Shown here: piece after piece, positions 13,190 to 21,724 of the stretch
Numbering within the stretch: position 1 is the stretch's first letter
Layout of the letters: every line of letters begins with the position of its first letter
From: Lachnospiraceae bacterium
GTDB taxonomy: Bacteria; Bacillota; Clostridia; Lachnospirales; Lachnospiraceae
Direction of reading: 5' to 3'
Assembly (NCBI GenBank): GCA_024698555.1
Contig: JAILRI010000019.1
Coordinates: forward strand, 1-34,109
Length of the DNA stretch: 34,109 bases
Position numbers and translations under genes: made by a program
The notes under the pieces: model-generated
What the model was told of the DNA's origin: nothing
Databases searched by the model: none
What the model saw: the letters and a program-made list of their open reading frames with translations, nothing else

Positions 13190-13195
13190 GAAAAA

Positions 13196-13222
13196 TTAGC
13201 ACTCAATCCACCTGAGTGCTAA
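13196..13222. promoter_or_regulatory. CIRCE element (HrcA operator)
   Basis: TTAGCACTC-AATCCACCT-GAGTGCTAA: perfect 9-9-9 CIRCE consensus. Confidence 0.96.
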
Positions 13223-13249
13223 TAAAATTTCTATAAACTCCCTGATAAT

Positions 13250-13699
13250 TCATTTCACCTCATGGTCGATCCCATGTTTTTTTAGGAATCCAAGCATATT
13301 GTCATCCCACTCATGCTCACCGGAACGGTCGGTGGTAAATACCGAGCGCGAAACTCCGGTCACAAGCATTAGTGAATTATTGTCAAACCGTATATTGACA
13401 ATATACGTTATATCACCTGCGCCCGGCTTTTTAAGCACCAGCTTCATGGACACCGGCAGACGCCTGCCCCTGATAAGAGACTTCACCTGCTCCTTCATCC
13501 CGGACCAGCCGATGAAGTCCTCCATTTTCAAGTTTTCGAGTTCCTCCTCAGAATAGAAGTTCATGTTGACGTGGCCGTCTATATGATAACTCACAGCCAC
13601 ATCAATATCTCCTTCCACGAAGAAGAAGCTGTCAAACGCAGTGTCCGTAAACAGAAGATTCATAAAATCCTTTATATTCAAGACACGGATAGCGATCAT
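13250..13699 (-). CDS. Small hypothetical protein, possibly DUF5721-like
   Basis: ORF 149 aa, 20-bp gap to upstream gene; family suggested from N-terminal IDGHVNMNFYSEEEL-type pattern only. Confidence 0.6.
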   Translation of the reverse strand: MIAIRVLNIKDFMNLLFTDTAFDSFFFVEGDIDVAVSYHIDGHVNMNFYSEEELENLKMEDFIGWSGMKEQVKSLIRGRRLPVSMKLVLKKPGAGDITYIVNIRFDNNSLMLVTGVSRSVFTTDRSGEHEWDDNMLGFLKKHGIDHEVK

Positions 13700-13719: not shown

Positions 13720-15687
13720 TTACTTGTTGGCACTTTCGGGATGATTAATCACCTGTTTTTTGATCGCGAACACCGCTATGCTTCTGGGCCTGATCACACA
13801 GGAGCGATGGTCGGTCAGCTTATTTGAGGCATCTGTGGTAAGTGCTGTCTCCACCTCATTCTTTGCCTCAACCGGAAGATCGAACTCATGCTCTTCCCAG
13901 TGCATATTGAACGCCACATAGAAAGTGGAGTCCTTATGCTTGCGATCTACCATGGCATAATCACCGTTGAGCAGCACTCCCAATGTGCGTGAAAAATACC
14001 CGAAATCGGGATACCACGCCCTGGTTCCGTGAAATGATATGTCAGGACGTCCGCTGTAGATGTAATCAAGTCCCTGCAGCTGAGCCCTGTTCGCGAAGAC
14101 CCTGTGTGAGGTCTTCAGTCTGGCCAGTTTCCTGACAAAATCATGCAGGTTCTTCGCTCTCGAACCTTTATCCCAGATAACCCGGCTCTGTTCGTTGTCG
14201 AGACAGTAAGGATTGTTATTGCCAAAATGGGTAAGTCCGAACTCGTCACCGGCCATCAGCATGGGTGTCCCCTGGCTTAAGAACAATACAGTCAATGCGT
14301 TCTTTATCATCCTGTAACGCAGTTTCAGCACCTGGCGGCTCTTTGTTTCCCCTTCCACGCCACAGTTCCAGCTGTAATTGATCTCACGTCCGTCTAAATT
14401 GTTCTCACCGTTATCCCTGTTATGGCGTTCGTCATACGAATACACATCTGCCAGGGTAAAGCCGTCATGGTCGGCAAGGTAATTGACCCTTCCTGTTTTT
14501 ACAAATCCCTTTCTGAACATTTCTGAAAACAGCTTTACCTGATCCTCATCGCCCTTTAAAAACCTGCGTACAGTCACCATAAAACCATCGTTACATTCAG
14601 CGATACGTTTCATGCAGGCCTTGTCACCGGATTCGCACATATCATGACCATTCATGATCAGTTTAACTCCCTTAAGCAAAGGATCACTCATGAAGAGCCG
14701 TTTAAAGACGTAATCACCAATTATGCGGAATCCGTCGATGCCATATTCGCTTCGCCACATTCTCAAAGCATCAAGCATCAAAGAGTCGGGAGTTCCCGAA
14801 GCAAAATCCATCTCCATAAATACCGCGATACCGCTTTCATGAAGCGCATTCACCATATCAAAAAATTCCCGTCTCGCATTTGAGGGGTCAGACGCATACC
14901 CGGATTTGGGCGCGAAATAATACCCTTCCGCCCCGTAGCCCCAGAAATTGAGTTTAGCCGGACTTCCCGCTCCCTGTATCATCCTCTCGTTAAATTCATA
15001 GCAGGGCATGAGCAGCACAGCATTTACGCCCAGCTGCCTCATATAAGGAATTTTTTCTACAAGCCCCGAATATGTCCCGGGGTGTTTTGCTCCGCTCGAC
15101 TTATCAACCGTAAACCCGCGAACATGCAGCTTGTAAATAAACAGATCCTCATAATCGGGACACTTAAATCCGAAATCCGGCCGCAGTTCTTCCCTTGACA
15201 AACGGGATCTTATATGCGGTCTGACTCCCGGATCCTCCCCGTCACCCTTTTTGGCTCTCCCGGATCCTTTTTTTTCAAGATCCGATCCTTCGCCAGCTCG
15301 ATCATCAATGCCATTATCCTTTAAGGCGGTCAGAGCTTCTTCAAGATCACGGCCTGCAGCCTGGACTGAGTTTGCACCTGACGCAGCCGCCGTACGGTAC
15401 TCATCGGTATCTGCCCAATATCCCCTTATCCCCGTCAGTTCCCGTGAATACGGATCAATAAAGCTGTCCTTGTCAGTCTCGAAAAGGTACTCACAAATAC
15501 CGGACGAACCGGACAGCGAAAAAGAACACTCAAAAATGCCCGTACATCCCTGCACGGGCAGCATTTCTATTTTATCAGCCGGTTTTCTGTCACCGGATCT
15601 ATACAGGTCGATGCTGCAGCGTTTCGCTTCAGGAGCATAACAAACCGCCTTAAAACCCGCACCTTCCGCTCTGACTCCAAAATCCAT
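13720..15687 (-). CDS. GlgX/isoamylase-like GH13 protein with degenerate active site
   Basis: GlgX-like NYLADHDGFTLADVYSYDERHNRDNGENNLDGREINYSWNCGVEGETKSRQV..LFLSQGTPMLMAGDEFGLTHFGNNNPYCLDNE; catalytic regions II/III altered (see findings). Confidence 0.88.
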   Translation of the reverse strand: MDFGVRAEGAGFKAVCYAPEAKRCSIDLYRSGDRKPADKIEMLPVQGCTGIFECSFSLSGSSGICEYLFETDKDSFIDPYSRELTGIRGYWADTDEYRTAAASGANSVQAAGRDLEEALTALKDNGIDDRAGEGSDLEKKGSGRAKKGDGEDPGVRPHIRSRLSREELRPDFGFKCPDYEDLFIYKLHVRGFTVDKSSGAKHPGTYSGLVEKIPYMRQLGVNAVLLMPCYEFNERMIQGAGSPAKLNFWGYGAEGYYFAPKSGYASDPSNARREFFDMVNALHESGIAVFMEMDFASGTPDSLMLDALRMWRSEYGIDGFRIIGDYVFKRLFMSDPLLKGVKLIMNGHDMCESGDKACMKRIAECNDGFMVTVRRFLKGDEDQVKLFSEMFRKGFVKTGRVNYLADHDGFTLADVYSYDERHNRDNGENNLDGREINYSWNCGVEGETKSRQVLKLRYRMIKNALTVLFLSQGTPMLMAGDEFGLTHFGNNNPYCLDNEQSRVIWDKGSRAKNLHDFVRKLARLKTSHRVFANRAQLQGLDYIYSGRPDISFHGTRAWYPDFGYFSRTLGVLLNGDYAMVDRKHKDSTFYVAFNMHWEEHEFDLPVEAKNEVETALTTDASNKLTDHRSCVIRPRSIAVFAIKKQVINHPESANK

Positions 15688-15700
15688 TTAGTTTCTCCCG

Positions 15701-17338
15701 TCAGTCCTCATCTTCGTCATTTTTGGCCGTAAGGACAGTACGTTTTCTGGCCATCTCATCATTTTCAAGATAGTCATCATATGTCGAAATCTTATCTATC
15801 AATGTTCCGTCCGGCAATATTTCCATGATCCTGTTTGCGGTGGTCTGGATGAACTGATGATCAAGGGCTGTAAAGAGCACTACTCCGGGGAATTTGATCA
15901 ACGCGTTGTTAAGCGCGGTGATGGACTCCATATCCAGATGGTTCGTAGGCTCATCCATGATCAGGACATTGGAGCCCAGGATCATCATCTTTGAGAGCAT
16001 GACGCGCACTCTTTCGCCTCCGGACAGTACGCAGACCTTTTTGACCCCGTCCTCTCCGGTAAAGAGCATGCGTCCCAAGAACCCTCTTACATACTGCTGA
16101 TCGTCCACCGGTGAGAACGGCATCAGGTGATCAACTATTGTTTCGCTTCCCTTGAATTCATCGGTATTATCCTTGGGGAAATAACTTCTCTCGGTCGTAA
16201 CCCCCCACTTAAAAGACCCCTCATCGGGTTCTATCTCCTCAGTCAGTATCCTGAACAGAGTCGTATTGGCCAGAGTATTGGCACCAACAAAAGCAACCTT
16301 GTCGTCATGACCGAGTACAAAGCTCACATTGTCAAGCACCTTCACTCCGTCTATAGTCTTGGAGATATTCTTGACTTCAAGTACCTCATTTCCGATAGTG
16401 CGGTTAGGCCTGAAATCGATATAGGGATATTTTCTGCTGGATGGCCTGATATCATCCAGCTCGATCTTCTCTAAAGCACGCTTACGGGATGTAGCCTGCT
16501 TTGATTTGGAAGCATTGGCGGAGAAACGCTGTATAAATTCCTGCAGCTCCTTGATCTTCTCCTCTTTCTTCTTGTTCGCTTCCTTCATCTGCTTGATCAT
16601 AAGCTGGCTGGATTCGTACCAGAAATCGTAGTTGCCGGCGTAGAGCTGTATTTTCGAATAATCGATATCCGCTATCTGCGTGCAGACCTTATTCAGGAAA
16701 TAACGGTCATGTGAAACCACGATAACTGTGTTGTCAAAATTGATCAGAAACTCGTCAAGCCACCTGATAGCCTCCAGATCCAGATGGTTCGTAGGCTCGT
16801 CGAGCAGCAGGATATCCGGATTGCCGAACAATGCCTGTGCCAGCAGGACCTTCACCTTGATCGTATCAGGCACTTCGCTCATCATCATGTAATGGAATTC
16901 GGTATCCACGCCCAGACCGTTCAGCAGAGTAGCTGCGTCACTCTCGGCTTCCCATCCGTTCATCTCGGCGAATTCACCTTCAAGCTCCGAAGCCCTGATA
17001 CCATCCTCATCACTGAAATCCTCTTTGGCATATATGGCATCCTTTTCCTTCATGACCTCGTAAAGGCGCTTATTGCCGAGTATGACAGTATCCATGACCG
17101 GATACGCGTCATATTTGAAATGATCCTGCTCCAGGAAAGACAGACGCTGCCCTGGAGTGACGATGATATCGCCCTTCGTAGGTTCAAGCTGTCCTGAGAG
17201 GATCTTCAGGAATGTAGATTTACCGGCACCGTTGGCACCGATCAATCCGTAGCAGTTTCCTTCCGTAAATTTGATATTGACATCCTCGAAAAGGGCACGT
17301 TTGCCCAATCTCAAGGTAACATTACTTGCCTGGATCAT
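15701..17338 (-). CDS. ABC-F family ATPase (YkpA/YbiT-like)
   Basis: Two NBDs without TMs; GANGAGKST, LLLDEPTNHLD, LSGGERVRVMLSKMM, LIMDEPTNHLD, interdomain linker rich in K/E. Confidence 0.93.
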   Translation of the reverse strand: MIQASNVTLRLGKRALFEDVNIKFTEGNCYGLIGANGAGKSTFLKILSGQLEPTKGDIIVTPGQRLSFLEQDHFKYDAYPVMDTVILGNKRLYEVMKEKDAIYAKEDFSDEDGIRASELEGEFAEMNGWEAESDAATLLNGLGVDTEFHYMMMSEVPDTIKVKVLLAQALFGNPDILLLDEPTNHLDLEAIRWLDEFLINFDNTVIVVSHDRYFLNKVCTQIADIDYSKIQLYAGNYDFWYESSQLMIKQMKEANKKKEEKIKELQEFIQRFSANASKSKQATSRKRALEKIELDDIRPSSRKYPYIDFRPNRTIGNEVLEVKNISKTIDGVKVLDNVSFVLGHDDKVAFVGANTLANTTLFRILTEEIEPDEGSFKWGVTTERSYFPKDNTDEFKGSETIVDHLMPFSPVDDQQYVRGFLGRMLFTGEDGVKKVCVLSGGERVRVMLSKMMILGSNVLIMDEPTNHLDMESITALNNALIKFPGVVLFTALDHQFIQTTANRIMEILPDGTLIDKISTYDDYLENDEMARKRTVLTAKNDEDED

Positions 17339-17347
17339 ATTTTCTCC

Positions 17348-19471
17348 TTAAACTTCAAAAATGAGTTCCCCATATGTCGGTACCGGCCAGAGCTTCGCGT
17401 CAACGCGCATTTCCAGCTTGTCTATCGGGGTACGCAGTGCCTCCATGGCAGGGAAAACTGTTTTTCTGAAAAACAGCGCTCTCTCCTTCATGTTGGAAAG
17501 CTTAAGCCCCTCCTCGATACACTTCTCCAATTCCTTCTCCGCAAAAAGAGCTTCGCGCAGAAAGCTTCTGCATTCATTCAAAAGTTCCTTCTCGGGAAGC
17601 CGCGAAGAGCCGTCTATCCTGTCTCCTCCAAAAACGTTTTCCAGCTTCGAGACTGTATCCGCAAGTCGTCCGACATATTCCACGGTTGCGGGTATAAACT
17701 TGCGCAGAGCCATTTCCACCATGGTCCTCGCCTCTATATTCATGGTCTTGGCGTATATTTCATAATTGATCTCGGCCCGTGCTTCCAGTTCGGTCTCAGA
17801 AAGCACATTCTGCCTGGTAAATACCTCTCTGGTCTTAGGATAAGTCAGGCTCTCAACAGACTCCACATAGCTCGGTTTATTGGGAAGACCGCGCCTTAAT
17901 GCTTCCTCCGGCCATTCGGGCGCGTAACCGTTGCCGTTAAAAATGACCCTCTTATGATCATTGATCGTCCTGCGGATAAGCTCCGATACCGCCAGATCAA
18001 AATCTTCGGCCTTTTCGAGCTCATCCGCCATCTCCATCAGCGAGTCAGCGACTATAGTGTTCAGTACGCTGTTGGCATCCGCTATGGACATGGATGAACC
18101 TACCATGCGCAGCTCAAACTTGTTACCCGTAAATGCAAAGGTCGAAGTCCTGTTACGGTCTGTGGTATCCTTGCTGATATACGGCAAGGTGCCTACTCCG
18201 AGACGCATTTTTTCCTTCTGTCTGGAGCTCGTAGCCTTTCCGGTAGCGATCATCTGGGCAAAGATATCTTCCAACTGTTCTCCGGTAAAAATGGAAACGA
18301 TCGCAGGCGGAGCTTCCGCGCCGCCAAGCCTCAGATCATTGCCCGGACATGAAGATGCCATGCGCAGAAGTTCGGCATGCTCATCTACTGCCTTTATCAC
18401 TGCTGCCGTAAAAAGCAGGAACTGCATATTATTATGCGGCTCTTTACCCGGTTTCATCAGGTTTTCACCGGTATCGGCCACCAAAGACCAGTTATTATGC
18501 TTGCCTGATCCGTTAACACCGGCAAATGGCTTTTCATGCAGAAGACAGGTAAGACCGTGCCTGGCCGCGATCTTCTTCATGCATTCCATGATCAGCTGGT
18601 TATGATCAGTCTCGATATTGACTGTACTGAAGACCGGCGCCAGCTCATGCTGGGCAGGGGCTGCCTCATTATGCTGGGTTTTCGCCAGGATCCCCAGCCG
18701 CCATAGCTCTTCATTCAGCTCATGCATAAAGGAGCTTACACGTTCCTTTATCGCGCCGAAATAATGATCATCCATTTCCTGCCCCTTGGGCGGCATTGCT
18801 CCGAACAGCGTCCTGCCGGTAAATATCAGATCATCACGGCGCAGGTATTTTTCGCGATCTATCAGGAAATATTCCTGCTCTGCACCCACACAGACATTGA
18901 CATGATGCACATCTTTCTTGCCGAACAGATGCAGAATACGTGTCGCCTGCCTGTCTATTGCCTCCATGGACCTTAGCAGAGGCGTTTTCTTGTCAAGTGC
19001 CTCACCTGTATATGCGCAAAATGCGGTGGGAATACACAAAGTCACTCCCGAGCTGTCCTCGCGCAGAAATGCCGGACTGGTACAATCCCATGTGGTGTAT
19101 CCTCTGGCCTCAAACGTAGCTCTTAAGCCGCCCGACGGAAAGCTTGACGCGTCAGGCTCACCCTTTACCAGCTCCTTCCCGGAGAATTCCATGATAACAC
19201 GTCCGTCTCCCGTAGGAGAAATAAATGAATCATGCTTCTCCGCGGTTACGCCTGTCATAGGCTGGAACCAGTGCGTAAAATGCGTGGCTCCGCGTTCTAT
19301 TGCCCAATCCTTCATGGCATGCGCCACGGTCTCTGCCATCTTGGGCGTCAGTTCTCCACCGTTTTCTATAGTTTTCTTTAACGCAAGATAAACATCCTCG
19401 GGAAGCCTTTCCTGCATAGTGACATCATTGAAGGTGTTCTCGCCGAAATATTCTGTAAGCATTCTGGGCAT
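17348..19471 (-). CDS. glnN: Glutamine synthetase type III
   Basis: [97 protein letters not shown]. Confidence 0.95.
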
Positions 19472-19474
19472 TTT

Positions 19475-21724
19475 TTATTTCCCCTTCTTCTTTGCTGCAT
19501 CCCTCTTGGCAGCCACATTCTCCGGTGTACAGGAGAATATCGCACATCCGAGCGGCGGCAGCTTTATGGTAATGCTGTTGTCCTGTCCGTCCCAGGGTTC
19601 GGGAACTGATCTCTTATCCTTGGGATTGATATTGCCCTGTCCTCCGTAGGTCGTCGAATCGCTGTTTAAGATTTCCTTATAAACACCGGCGAAAGGAACT
19701 GCCTGTGTATATTTTTCATATGTCACAGGGGTAAAATTGCATACAAAGAGAAGCGTATCCTCGGGTCTGCCGTTGCTTCTGATAAAGCTTACAATGCTGT
19801 GATCGGCGTCCTGGCAGCTCATCCATTTGAAGCCGTCCGGATCCTGATCAAGCGCTGTCATGGCAGTATTTGTCAGATAAAGTTCTCCAAGTTTCGCGTT
19901 GAATTTCTGGAGTTTACCGTGCAGCTCGTCCTCGCACTCTCCCCAGTCAAGACTTCTGGCCTCGCTCCATTCACGCTCCTGACCAAATTCCTGTCCCATA
20001 AACAGCAGCTTCTTGCCGGGATGTCCCATCATGAAAGCATATGCCAGTCTTAAGTTGGCAAACTTGTCCCCCCTAAGCCCCGGCATCTTATTCAGCATCG
20101 AACATTTGCCGTGGACAACCTCGTCGTGAGAAAGTACCAGTATGAAATTTTCACTGTAGGCGTACATCATTCCAAAGGTAAGCTGACCGTGAACACCCTT
20201 GCGGAAGAGCGGATCCTGCTTCATATATGAAGTGAAATCATTCATCCAGCCCATGTTCCACTTAAGATCAAATCCTAAACCATCATCCTCCACTTCCCAG
20301 GTGATCTTCGGCCAGGCCGTGGATTCTTCCGCAATAACGACTGCACCGGTCTTACGTTTGTGGAATACGGAATTGAGATGCTTTAACAGCTCTACAGCTT
20401 CAAGATTCTCATTGCCTCCGTATTTATTGGCAACCCACTGACCGGGCTTGCGTCCGTAATCGAGATAGAGCATGGAAGCAACAGCATCCATACGCAGACC
20501 GTCCGCATGGTACTTTTCAACCCAGAACAGAGCATTGGCAATAAGGAAATTGGAAATCTCGGGGCGTCCGAAATTGAAAATGAGCGTCCCCCAGTCCGGA
20601 TGCTCACCCAGACGTTTATCGGGATGTTCATACAGACAGGTTCCGTCAAAATTGGAAAGTGCCCAGGCATCCTTCGGGAAATGAGCCGGTACCCAGTCAA
20701 GGATCACTCCGATGCCCTCATTATGCATGAAATTGATAAAATACATGAAATCCTGAGGCGTCCCGTAACGCGATGTGGCCGCGTAGTACCCTGTCACCTG
20801 ATATCCCCATGATCCGTCAAAAGGATGTTCCATGACCGGCATCAGTTCAATATGTGTAAAATGCTGCTTTTTGACATATTTGGCCAGCATAGGGGCAAGC
20901 TCCCGGTAACTGTAAAAATCATTGTCTCCTTCGCCCTTGCGCATCCATGATCCGAGATGAACCTCGTAAATATTGAGCGGCATGTTCTTAATGTCCGCTT
21001 TCTTGCGGTTCTTCATCCATTCCTTATCTTTCCAGTCATAATCAAGATTTCTGACAATGGATGCGGTATTAGGTCTCAGCTCCGAATAAACGGCATACGG
21101 ATCCGCCTTGAGGTAAGTCAGTCCACCGTTGGTTTTAAGCTCAAACTTATAAAGCTCTCCTTCCTCTATGCCGGGAATGAACAGTTCAAAAATGCCCGAT
21201 GCGCGCAGTTTTCTCATCGGATGGCGTCTTCCGTCCCAGCCGTTAAAATCACCGACCACACTGACTCTTTCGGCATTGGGCGCCCATACCGCAAAATAAG
21301 TACCCCAGACATTATTGATCCTTCTGTAGTGAGCCCCCAGTTTTTCATATATTTCGTAATGGATGCCTTTAATAAAGCGATCTTCATCTTCCGCGGTTAT
21401 CTGAGACTCGAACATGTATGGATCGCGTACTTCATAGACTTCGTCATTGTCATATGTGACTTCATATCTGTAAGGCTCTGCTTTGCTTCCGGGGATCAGA
21501 ACAGAAAAATTGCCCTGTTCATCAGCGTTTTCCATATCATAATATTCTCTGCCAACGATCAGTCTTACTGACTTTGCCGTAGGCTGATACGTGTTAAACA
21601 GCACGCCTTTTTCCGTAATATGAGGTCCGAGCCACGAATGAGGGTCATCATGTTCGGAATATACGATAGCCTCCATGGCTCCCCAGTTCATAAGTCCGTA
21701 CATTTCGTCATTCTCGTAGATCAT
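19475..21724 (-). CDS. glgB: 1,4-alpha-glucan branching enzyme
   Basis: VSVVGDFNGWDGRRHPMR, YEVHLGSWMRK, DGLRMDAVASMLYLDYGR, IAEESTAWP, LSHDEVVHGKCSMLNKMPG. Confidence 0.97.
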   Translation of the reverse strand: MIYENDEMYGLMNWGAMEAIVYSEHDDPHSWLGPHITEKGVLFNTYQPTAKSVRLIVGREYYDMENADEQGNFSVLIPGSKAEPYRYEVTYDNDEVYEVRDPYMFESQITAEDEDRFIKGIHYEIYEKLGAHYRRINNVWGTYFAVWAPNAERVSVVGDFNGWDGRRHPMRKLRASGIFELFIPGIEEGELYKFELKTNGGLTYLKADPYAVYSELRPNTASIVRNLDYDWKDKEWMKNRKKADIKNMPLNIYEVHLGSWMRKGEGDNDFYSYRELAPMLAKYVKKQHFTHIELMPVMEHPFDGSWGYQVTGYYAATSRYGTPQDFMYFINFMHNEGIGVILDWVPAHFPKDAWALSNFDGTCLYEHPDKRLGEHPDWGTLIFNFGRPEISNFLIANALFWVEKYHADGLRMDAVASMLYLDYGRKPGQWVANKYGGNENLEAVELLKHLNSVFHKRKTGAVVIAEESTAWPKITWEVEDDGLGFDLKWNMGWMNDFTSYMKQDPLFRKGVHGQLTFGMMYAYSENFILVLSHDEVVHGKCSMLNKMPGLRGDKFANLRLAYAFMMGHPGKKLLFMGQEFGQEREWSEARSLDWGECEDELHGKLQKFNAKLGELYLTNTAMTALDQDPDGFKWMSCQDADHSIVSFIRSNGRPEDTLLFVCNFTPVTYEKYTQAVPFAGVYKEILNSDSTTYGGQGNINPKDKRSVPEPWDGQDNSITIKLPPLGCAIFSCTPENVAAKRDAAKKKGK

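Follow-up and report, generated by a model that had tools for sequence, protein, structure and literature searches.

The gene at 13720..15687 on the minus strand of the analyzed window (the whole 34,109-nt stretch of contig JAILRI010000019.1 from a Lachnospiraceae bacterium, whose assembly is called the source genome, G000, below) encodes a GlgX-like protein, here referred to as pseudo-GlgX, that is almost certainly a pseudoenzyme. As shown by alignment, the hydrolytic triad is gone, and every member of the clade to which it belongs has lost the loop closing the active site. A preliminary description of this DNA had proposed a pseudoenzyme, and that reading is upheld by the conservation seen among orthologues, by purifying selection and by the structure model. 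The observation is larger than was said there: pseudo-GlgX is fixed in Lachnospiraceae, where the family as a whole conserves it and its deletion has become fixed, and is not one decayed gene. The gene and the domains of its product are as follows.

13720..15687, minus strand: pseudo-glgX, 655 codons, ATG start at 15687
Residues 1-78: N-terminal beta-sandwich, degenerate CBM48-like
Residues ~180-527: (beta/alpha)8 barrel
Residues ~546-645: C-terminal beta domain

Judged by its sequence, pseudo-GlgX is a derivative of the GlgX family by homology, but the name GlgX should not be applied to it, because the catalytic features that define the family (Asp, Glu and the stabilising Asp together with region I DxVxNH) are not present as a set and the score with TIGR02100, 276.7 bits, does not reach the curated equivalog cut-off of 640.9. 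Its overall homology and three-domain fold are those of the family according to profile, tree, model and Foldseek search, as in GlgX and TreX (TIGR02100; PDB 2wsk, 7u39, 2vnc), which together with isoamylase 1 are its best structurally solved relatives. The preservation of the fold, assumed in the preliminary description, is shown at the level of an AlphaFold2 model based on a 56-sequence alignment (pLDDT 87.4, pTM 0.87), where a complete barrel is flanked by the N-terminal beta-sandwich and the C-terminal beta domain; the top Foldseek matches are rice ISA1 in the ISA1-ISA2 complex, S. venezuelae GlgX and Chlamydomonas ISA1. The Pfam CBM48 model is reached by just 3 of 24 pseudo-clade members.

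Residues were mapped with E. coli GlgX from NC_000913 and active GlgX of relatives as the reference, and the alignment places the changes in the catalytic centre as follows.

14737..14814, minus strand: strand 3 to strand 4, residues 292-317, with altered region I and the deletion
14719..14721, minus strand: Ile323, codon ATT, at the position of the nucleophile Asp (E. coli D336)
14650..14652, minus strand: Asn346, codon AAT, at the position of the acid/base Glu (E. coli E371)

The codons read from the sequence agree exactly with the preliminary description, which had put Ile and Asn at these positions, and the replacement of both catalytic residues is confirmed by the alignment. The same is true of region I, reported there as replaced and followed by a shortened segment: EMDFAS stands where E. 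coli GlgX has DIVLNH, and strands 3 and 4 are separated by 12 residues versus 55 in every active relative. The deletion, of about 43 residues after region I, is identical in 79/79 orthologues. The substitution of the catalytic pair is likewise clade-wide, with Asp and Glu occurring together in none of the 79 orthologues and only two members retaining two of the three triad residues; the triad columns vary freely, the most common combinations being NSN, NRD, MHD and KYE. Region IV, described as well kept, is indeed intact in pseudo-GlgX (HDGFTL), but not across its clade: the stabilising (third) Asp is present in the protein itself and in only 25% of the clade. Truly conserved motif stretches of the clade are only GNNNxYCxDN, whose good preservation had been noted correctly, and HNxxNGExNxDG..NCGxEG. 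Both are shared with GlgX and TreX, as are the outer sugar-contact residues, while the nucleophile, the acid/base, the region I His and the closing loop are not, and pseudo-GlgX forms a separate clade.

It is very improbable that the protein has rebuilt its catalytic centre and is still active, debranching or transglycosylating by means of, for example, the Asp of IIGD or another carboxylate pair. The column check showed that the pseudo clade conserves no carboxylate at or close to the catalytic positions, and catalysis by alternative carboxylates was rejected, all candidate columns being unconserved. In particular, an Asp/Glu pair in the catalytic register, which the preliminary description had named as the finding that would overturn its view, occurs in 0/79 orthologues, and the Asp of IIGD itself sits in a variable column (D 19, S 13, E 12, G 9). 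Moreover, His and Trp of the -1 subsite and region I are lost, the closing loop is deleted, and a normal GlgX is also encoded by many carriers of pseudo-GlgX. A rebuilt enzyme would, on the other hand, account for glycogen-making genomes, the source genome and several near-complete relatives among them, that have no recognised debrancher. The source genome, where glgC and its paralogue are adjacent on contig 77 and glgB lies in the window, makes glycogen according to this gene content. The debrancher seems to be missing because its assembly yielded neither an active GlgX nor a GH133 domain, nor any type I pullulanase above the cut-off; the assembly is MAG-like (94% complete, 7.85% contamination), so that gene absences are provisional. 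The same debranchers are absent from a near-complete relative of the same genus (G006), and recognised enzymes of these three types are likewise lacking in several near-complete relatives that make glycogen. The search for a second, active debranching enzyme, proposed in the preliminary description, thus gave none of the usual types, but contig 273 of the source genome encodes a 719-aa neopullulanase/maltodextrin-glucosidase-like GH13 protein with intact catalytic motifs (L129:613-2769). This protein could open branches and may be a candidate source of the missing alpha-1,6 cleavage, which also speaks against a rebuilt pseudo-GlgX.

The maximum-likelihood tree of 123 sequences separates 79 pseudo-GlgX from 44 active sequences with an SH-aLRT of 100, and a single clade unites all 79. 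The genome-wide scan likewise gave 80 loci in two discrete classes, 46 of the pseudo type versus 34 with complete motifs; the same deletion is present in all 46, and the catalytic pair in none. In the search with the pseudo-clade profile, scores are 429-845 bits for members and no higher than 363 bits for active GlgX. A copy is carried by 23/23 further genomes searched within the genus and by 108 of 130 Lachnospiraceae genomes (~83% of sampled genera; about one genome per genus, at least 95% complete except the source genome). In a class-wide Clostridia sample, pseudo-GlgX was found in 10/12 Lachnospiraceae genomes, and the profile search gave no copy in 231/231 genomes of other Clostridia families.

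The substitution rates show strong purifying selection on pseudo-GlgX: dN/dS is 0.04-0.09 among close pairs, and therefore the protein is functional. The loss of the catalytic motifs and the MAG-like assembly with its 7.85% contamination could point to a pseudogene or to a sequencing or assembly artefact, but the chance of this is practically negligible, given reading frames open in nearly all orthologues, these dN/dS values, the occurrence in 108/130 genera and the same deletion throughout. A decayed gene was rejected on the grounds of dN/dS, prevalence and the common deletion.

The retained part of the substrate cleft was compared with S. venezuelae GlgX (SvGlgX), where acarbose is contacted at the -1 subsite by W222, Y224, H271, D342, E378, W380 and H449, and further out by R212, E470, N534 and Y536 (PMC9530166). 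This enzyme is regulated by c-di-GMP, with the dinucleotide-binding residues E47/R56/R438/R579 and related ones (PMC9530166). The equivalents of H271, D342, E378, W380, H449 and D450 are lost or variable in the pseudo clade, and that of R212 was left out of the comparison, its alignment not being confident. The retained positions, from the alignment and PMC9530166, are the following.

14935..14943, minus strand: Trp249-Gly-Tyr251, the SvGlgX sugar contacts W222/Y224, conserved in 100%/90% of the pseudo clade
14404..14406, minus strand: Glu428, the SvGlgX outer sugar contact E470
14206..14223, minus strand: GNNNPY motif, residues 489-494

Asn492 and Tyr494 of the last motif correspond to SvGlgX N534 and Y536 and are 100% and 99% conserved. 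The column of SvGlgX E470 contains Glu in 79/79 members of the pseudo clade versus 59% Glu and 39% Trp in active GlgX; in these alignments, the pattern is the reverse of what simple decay would be expected to produce. Relative to active GlgX, conservation in the pseudo clade falls to 0.54 for the catalytic strand 4-5 region and 0.59 for the CBM48-like domain, the N-terminal domain being poorly conserved; the strand 7-8 loops stand at 0.91-0.96 and the C-terminal domain at 1.13. A wall that binds sugar, and perhaps a face that binds protein, retained without hydrolysis would be expected to leave such a distribution, although the conserved cleft residues may instead be structural.

In the window, pseudo-glgX belongs to an operon-like run on the minus strand, in the order glgB, glnA, ABC-F gene, pseudo-glgX, DUF5721 gene, with gaps of 3, 9, 13 and 20 bp.

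19475..21724, minus strand: glgB, branching enzyme with intact catalytic motifs, first glycogen gene of the run
17348..19471, minus strand: glnA, type III glutamine synthetase, 3 bp after glgB
15701..17338, minus strand: ABC-F ATPase, 9 bp after glnA and 13 bp before pseudo-glgX
13250..13699, minus strand: DUF5721 gene, 20 bp after pseudo-glgX, a recurrent downstream neighbour

The catalytic motifs of the neighbouring glgB product named in the preliminary description (DGLRMDAV, IAEES, SHDEVVHG) are all present. The order glgB-(x)-glnA-ABC-F-pseudo-glgX is found again elsewhere (L047, L081, G077, G147), and in G138 pseudo-glgX is directly upstream of glgB with a 6-bp gap. Active glgX, an ABC gene and pseudo-glgX follow each other on one strand in G146, and in G151 active glgX is ~1.6 kb from pseudo-glgX on the opposite strand. 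In most other genera, pseudo-glgX is found not among glg genes but amid gltX, uvrD and trpS and genes for DUF1292 and DUF5662, and a glycogen operon as the explanation for all genera was rejected because of these neighbours. In several genera a TraX-like gene is located directly 3' of pseudo-glgX (L137:3152-3826, L140:2544-3245, L141:12443-13126), the ends of the two genes overlapping in G146 and G077; in this position the TraX-like gene alternates with DUF5662 or DUF5721.

Two further features of these loci were observed. Two GlgB proteins per genome, of ~640-690 aa and ~735-1000 aa, are common in Lachnospiraceae; the longer type lies near pseudo-glgX, and wherever both genes were seen on one contig they are on the same strand. 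The htpG gene, which follows the DUF5721 gene in the window, has a CIRCE operator of its own, a perfect TTAGCACTC-N9-GAGTGCTAA at 13195-13223 on the minus strand directly upstream of htpG, followed by a TTGACA-17-TATGAT promoter, and because of this arrangement htpG looks HrcA-controlled. Since its listed TTG start (13189) is inside the promoter, the true start is downstream.

It appears unlikely that pseudo-GlgX has moved out of glycogen metabolism and uses its isoamylase fold to sense maltodextrin, to take part in signalling or in translation and stress processes, or to scaffold unrelated partners such as ABC-F, DUF5721, DUF5662 or TraX-like proteins. Such a role would agree with recurrent neighbours that are housekeeping genes or genes of unknown function, and with a relaxed N-terminal glucan-binding domain next to strand 7-8 loops and a C-terminal domain that are the most conserved parts; against it, in several genera glgB adjoins pseudo-glgX or shares its operon-like run, the outer sugar contacts are invariant, and genomes without glgB are also without pseudo-GlgX. 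The latter are few: 3/130 genomes lack glgB and none of them has pseudo-GlgX (p=0.004, shared ancestry ignored), and with glgB in 127/130 genomes its co-variation with pseudo-GlgX has little power. Co-occurrence with glgC is uninformative, because glgC is above the cut-off in 128/130 genomes.

Active GlgX was found in 40/130 Lachnospiraceae genomes, one of them with a partial copy, and 39 of these 40 also carry pseudo-GlgX (Fisher p 0.002, shared ancestry ignored). Together with the closeness of the two genes in G146 and G151 and the ISA1/ISA2 complexes among the top Foldseek matches, this would suit a subunit forming a hetero-oligomer with active GlgX, exactly as in ISA1-ISA2. However, active GlgX is missing in 69/108 carriers, the source genome included, so this cannot be the sole role of pseudo-GlgX; an obligate GlgX partner was rejected for the same reason, and the hetero-oligomer, a narrower form of the explanation preferred below, is rather doubtful.

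In plants, ISA2 is a non-catalytic isoamylase paralogue of starch synthesis that shapes the storage polyglucan together with ISA1 (PMC12510319, PMC12892837), and the reason for its retention without catalysis has been described as not understood (PMC12510319). As in plant ISA2 (PDB 9j6x_C, 9xvi_C), the isoamylase fold of pseudo-GlgX has lost its catalytic residues and is retained by selection, here purifying selection over a large clade. Unlike ISA2, pseudo-GlgX is bacterial and has no obligate ISA1-like partner, many carriers being without an active paralogue, which accompanies it in only 39/108. The pseudo-GlgX profile scores 414 bits with ISA1 versus 203 bits with ISA2; these scores argue against membership in plant ISA2, and with the ISA1 score twice that of ISA2, the catalytic loss in pseudo-GlgX was probably independent.

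The literature searched yielded no description of a bacterial pseudo-isoamylase, which is not proof of non-existence. The 'glgX2' product of Butyrivibrio hungatei MB2003, annotated as a debranching enzyme, has 648 aa and no assigned CBM48 (PMC5716241), in agreement with the length and missing CBM48 of the pseudo clade. Butyrivibrio genomes of the scan (L060, L062) carry pseudo-clade members, and 'glgX2' is probably one as well, judging from these carriers, its length and the absence of CBM48.

Taken together, it is moderately probable that pseudo-GlgX is a non-catalytic alpha-glucan-binding accessory protein in glycogen metabolism. The glycogen-binding or regulatory role suggested in the preliminary description is supported only indirectly, by the kept outer contacts, the linkage with glgB and glgX and the absence from genomes without glgB. 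Under the accessory-protein reading, alpha-1,4-glucan chains would be bound in the remnant of the substrate cleft, whose wall is formed by Trp249/Tyr251, Glu428 and Asn492/Tyr494, and the conserved C-terminal domain could be a further glucan-binding site. More tentatively, the protein might thereby dock onto glycogen and recruit, position or modulate active enzymes, the best candidate for a partner being GlgB, likely along with active GlgX where the latter is present. As ISA2 does for ISA1, pseudo-GlgX would then, as a subunit with no catalysis of its own, shape or protect the branched polymer and leave it uncut. A broader proposal is possible but less than probable: an independent bacterial ISA2-like pseudo-isoamylase that is a near-universal glycogen-docking subunit of Lachnospiraceae, controls glycogen branching or turnover via GlgB (and GlgX where present), and is part of a GlgX-free breakdown where the classical debranchers are absent.

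Since a widespread protein matches the debrancher family without having its chemistry, homology-based counts of GlgX in inventories of glycogen metabolism are probably wrong for Lachnospiraceae. The glycogen-making genomes with no recognised debranching enzyme expose a testable gap, and pseudo-GlgX gives this dominant family of gut bacteria a bacterial counterpart to plant ISA2.
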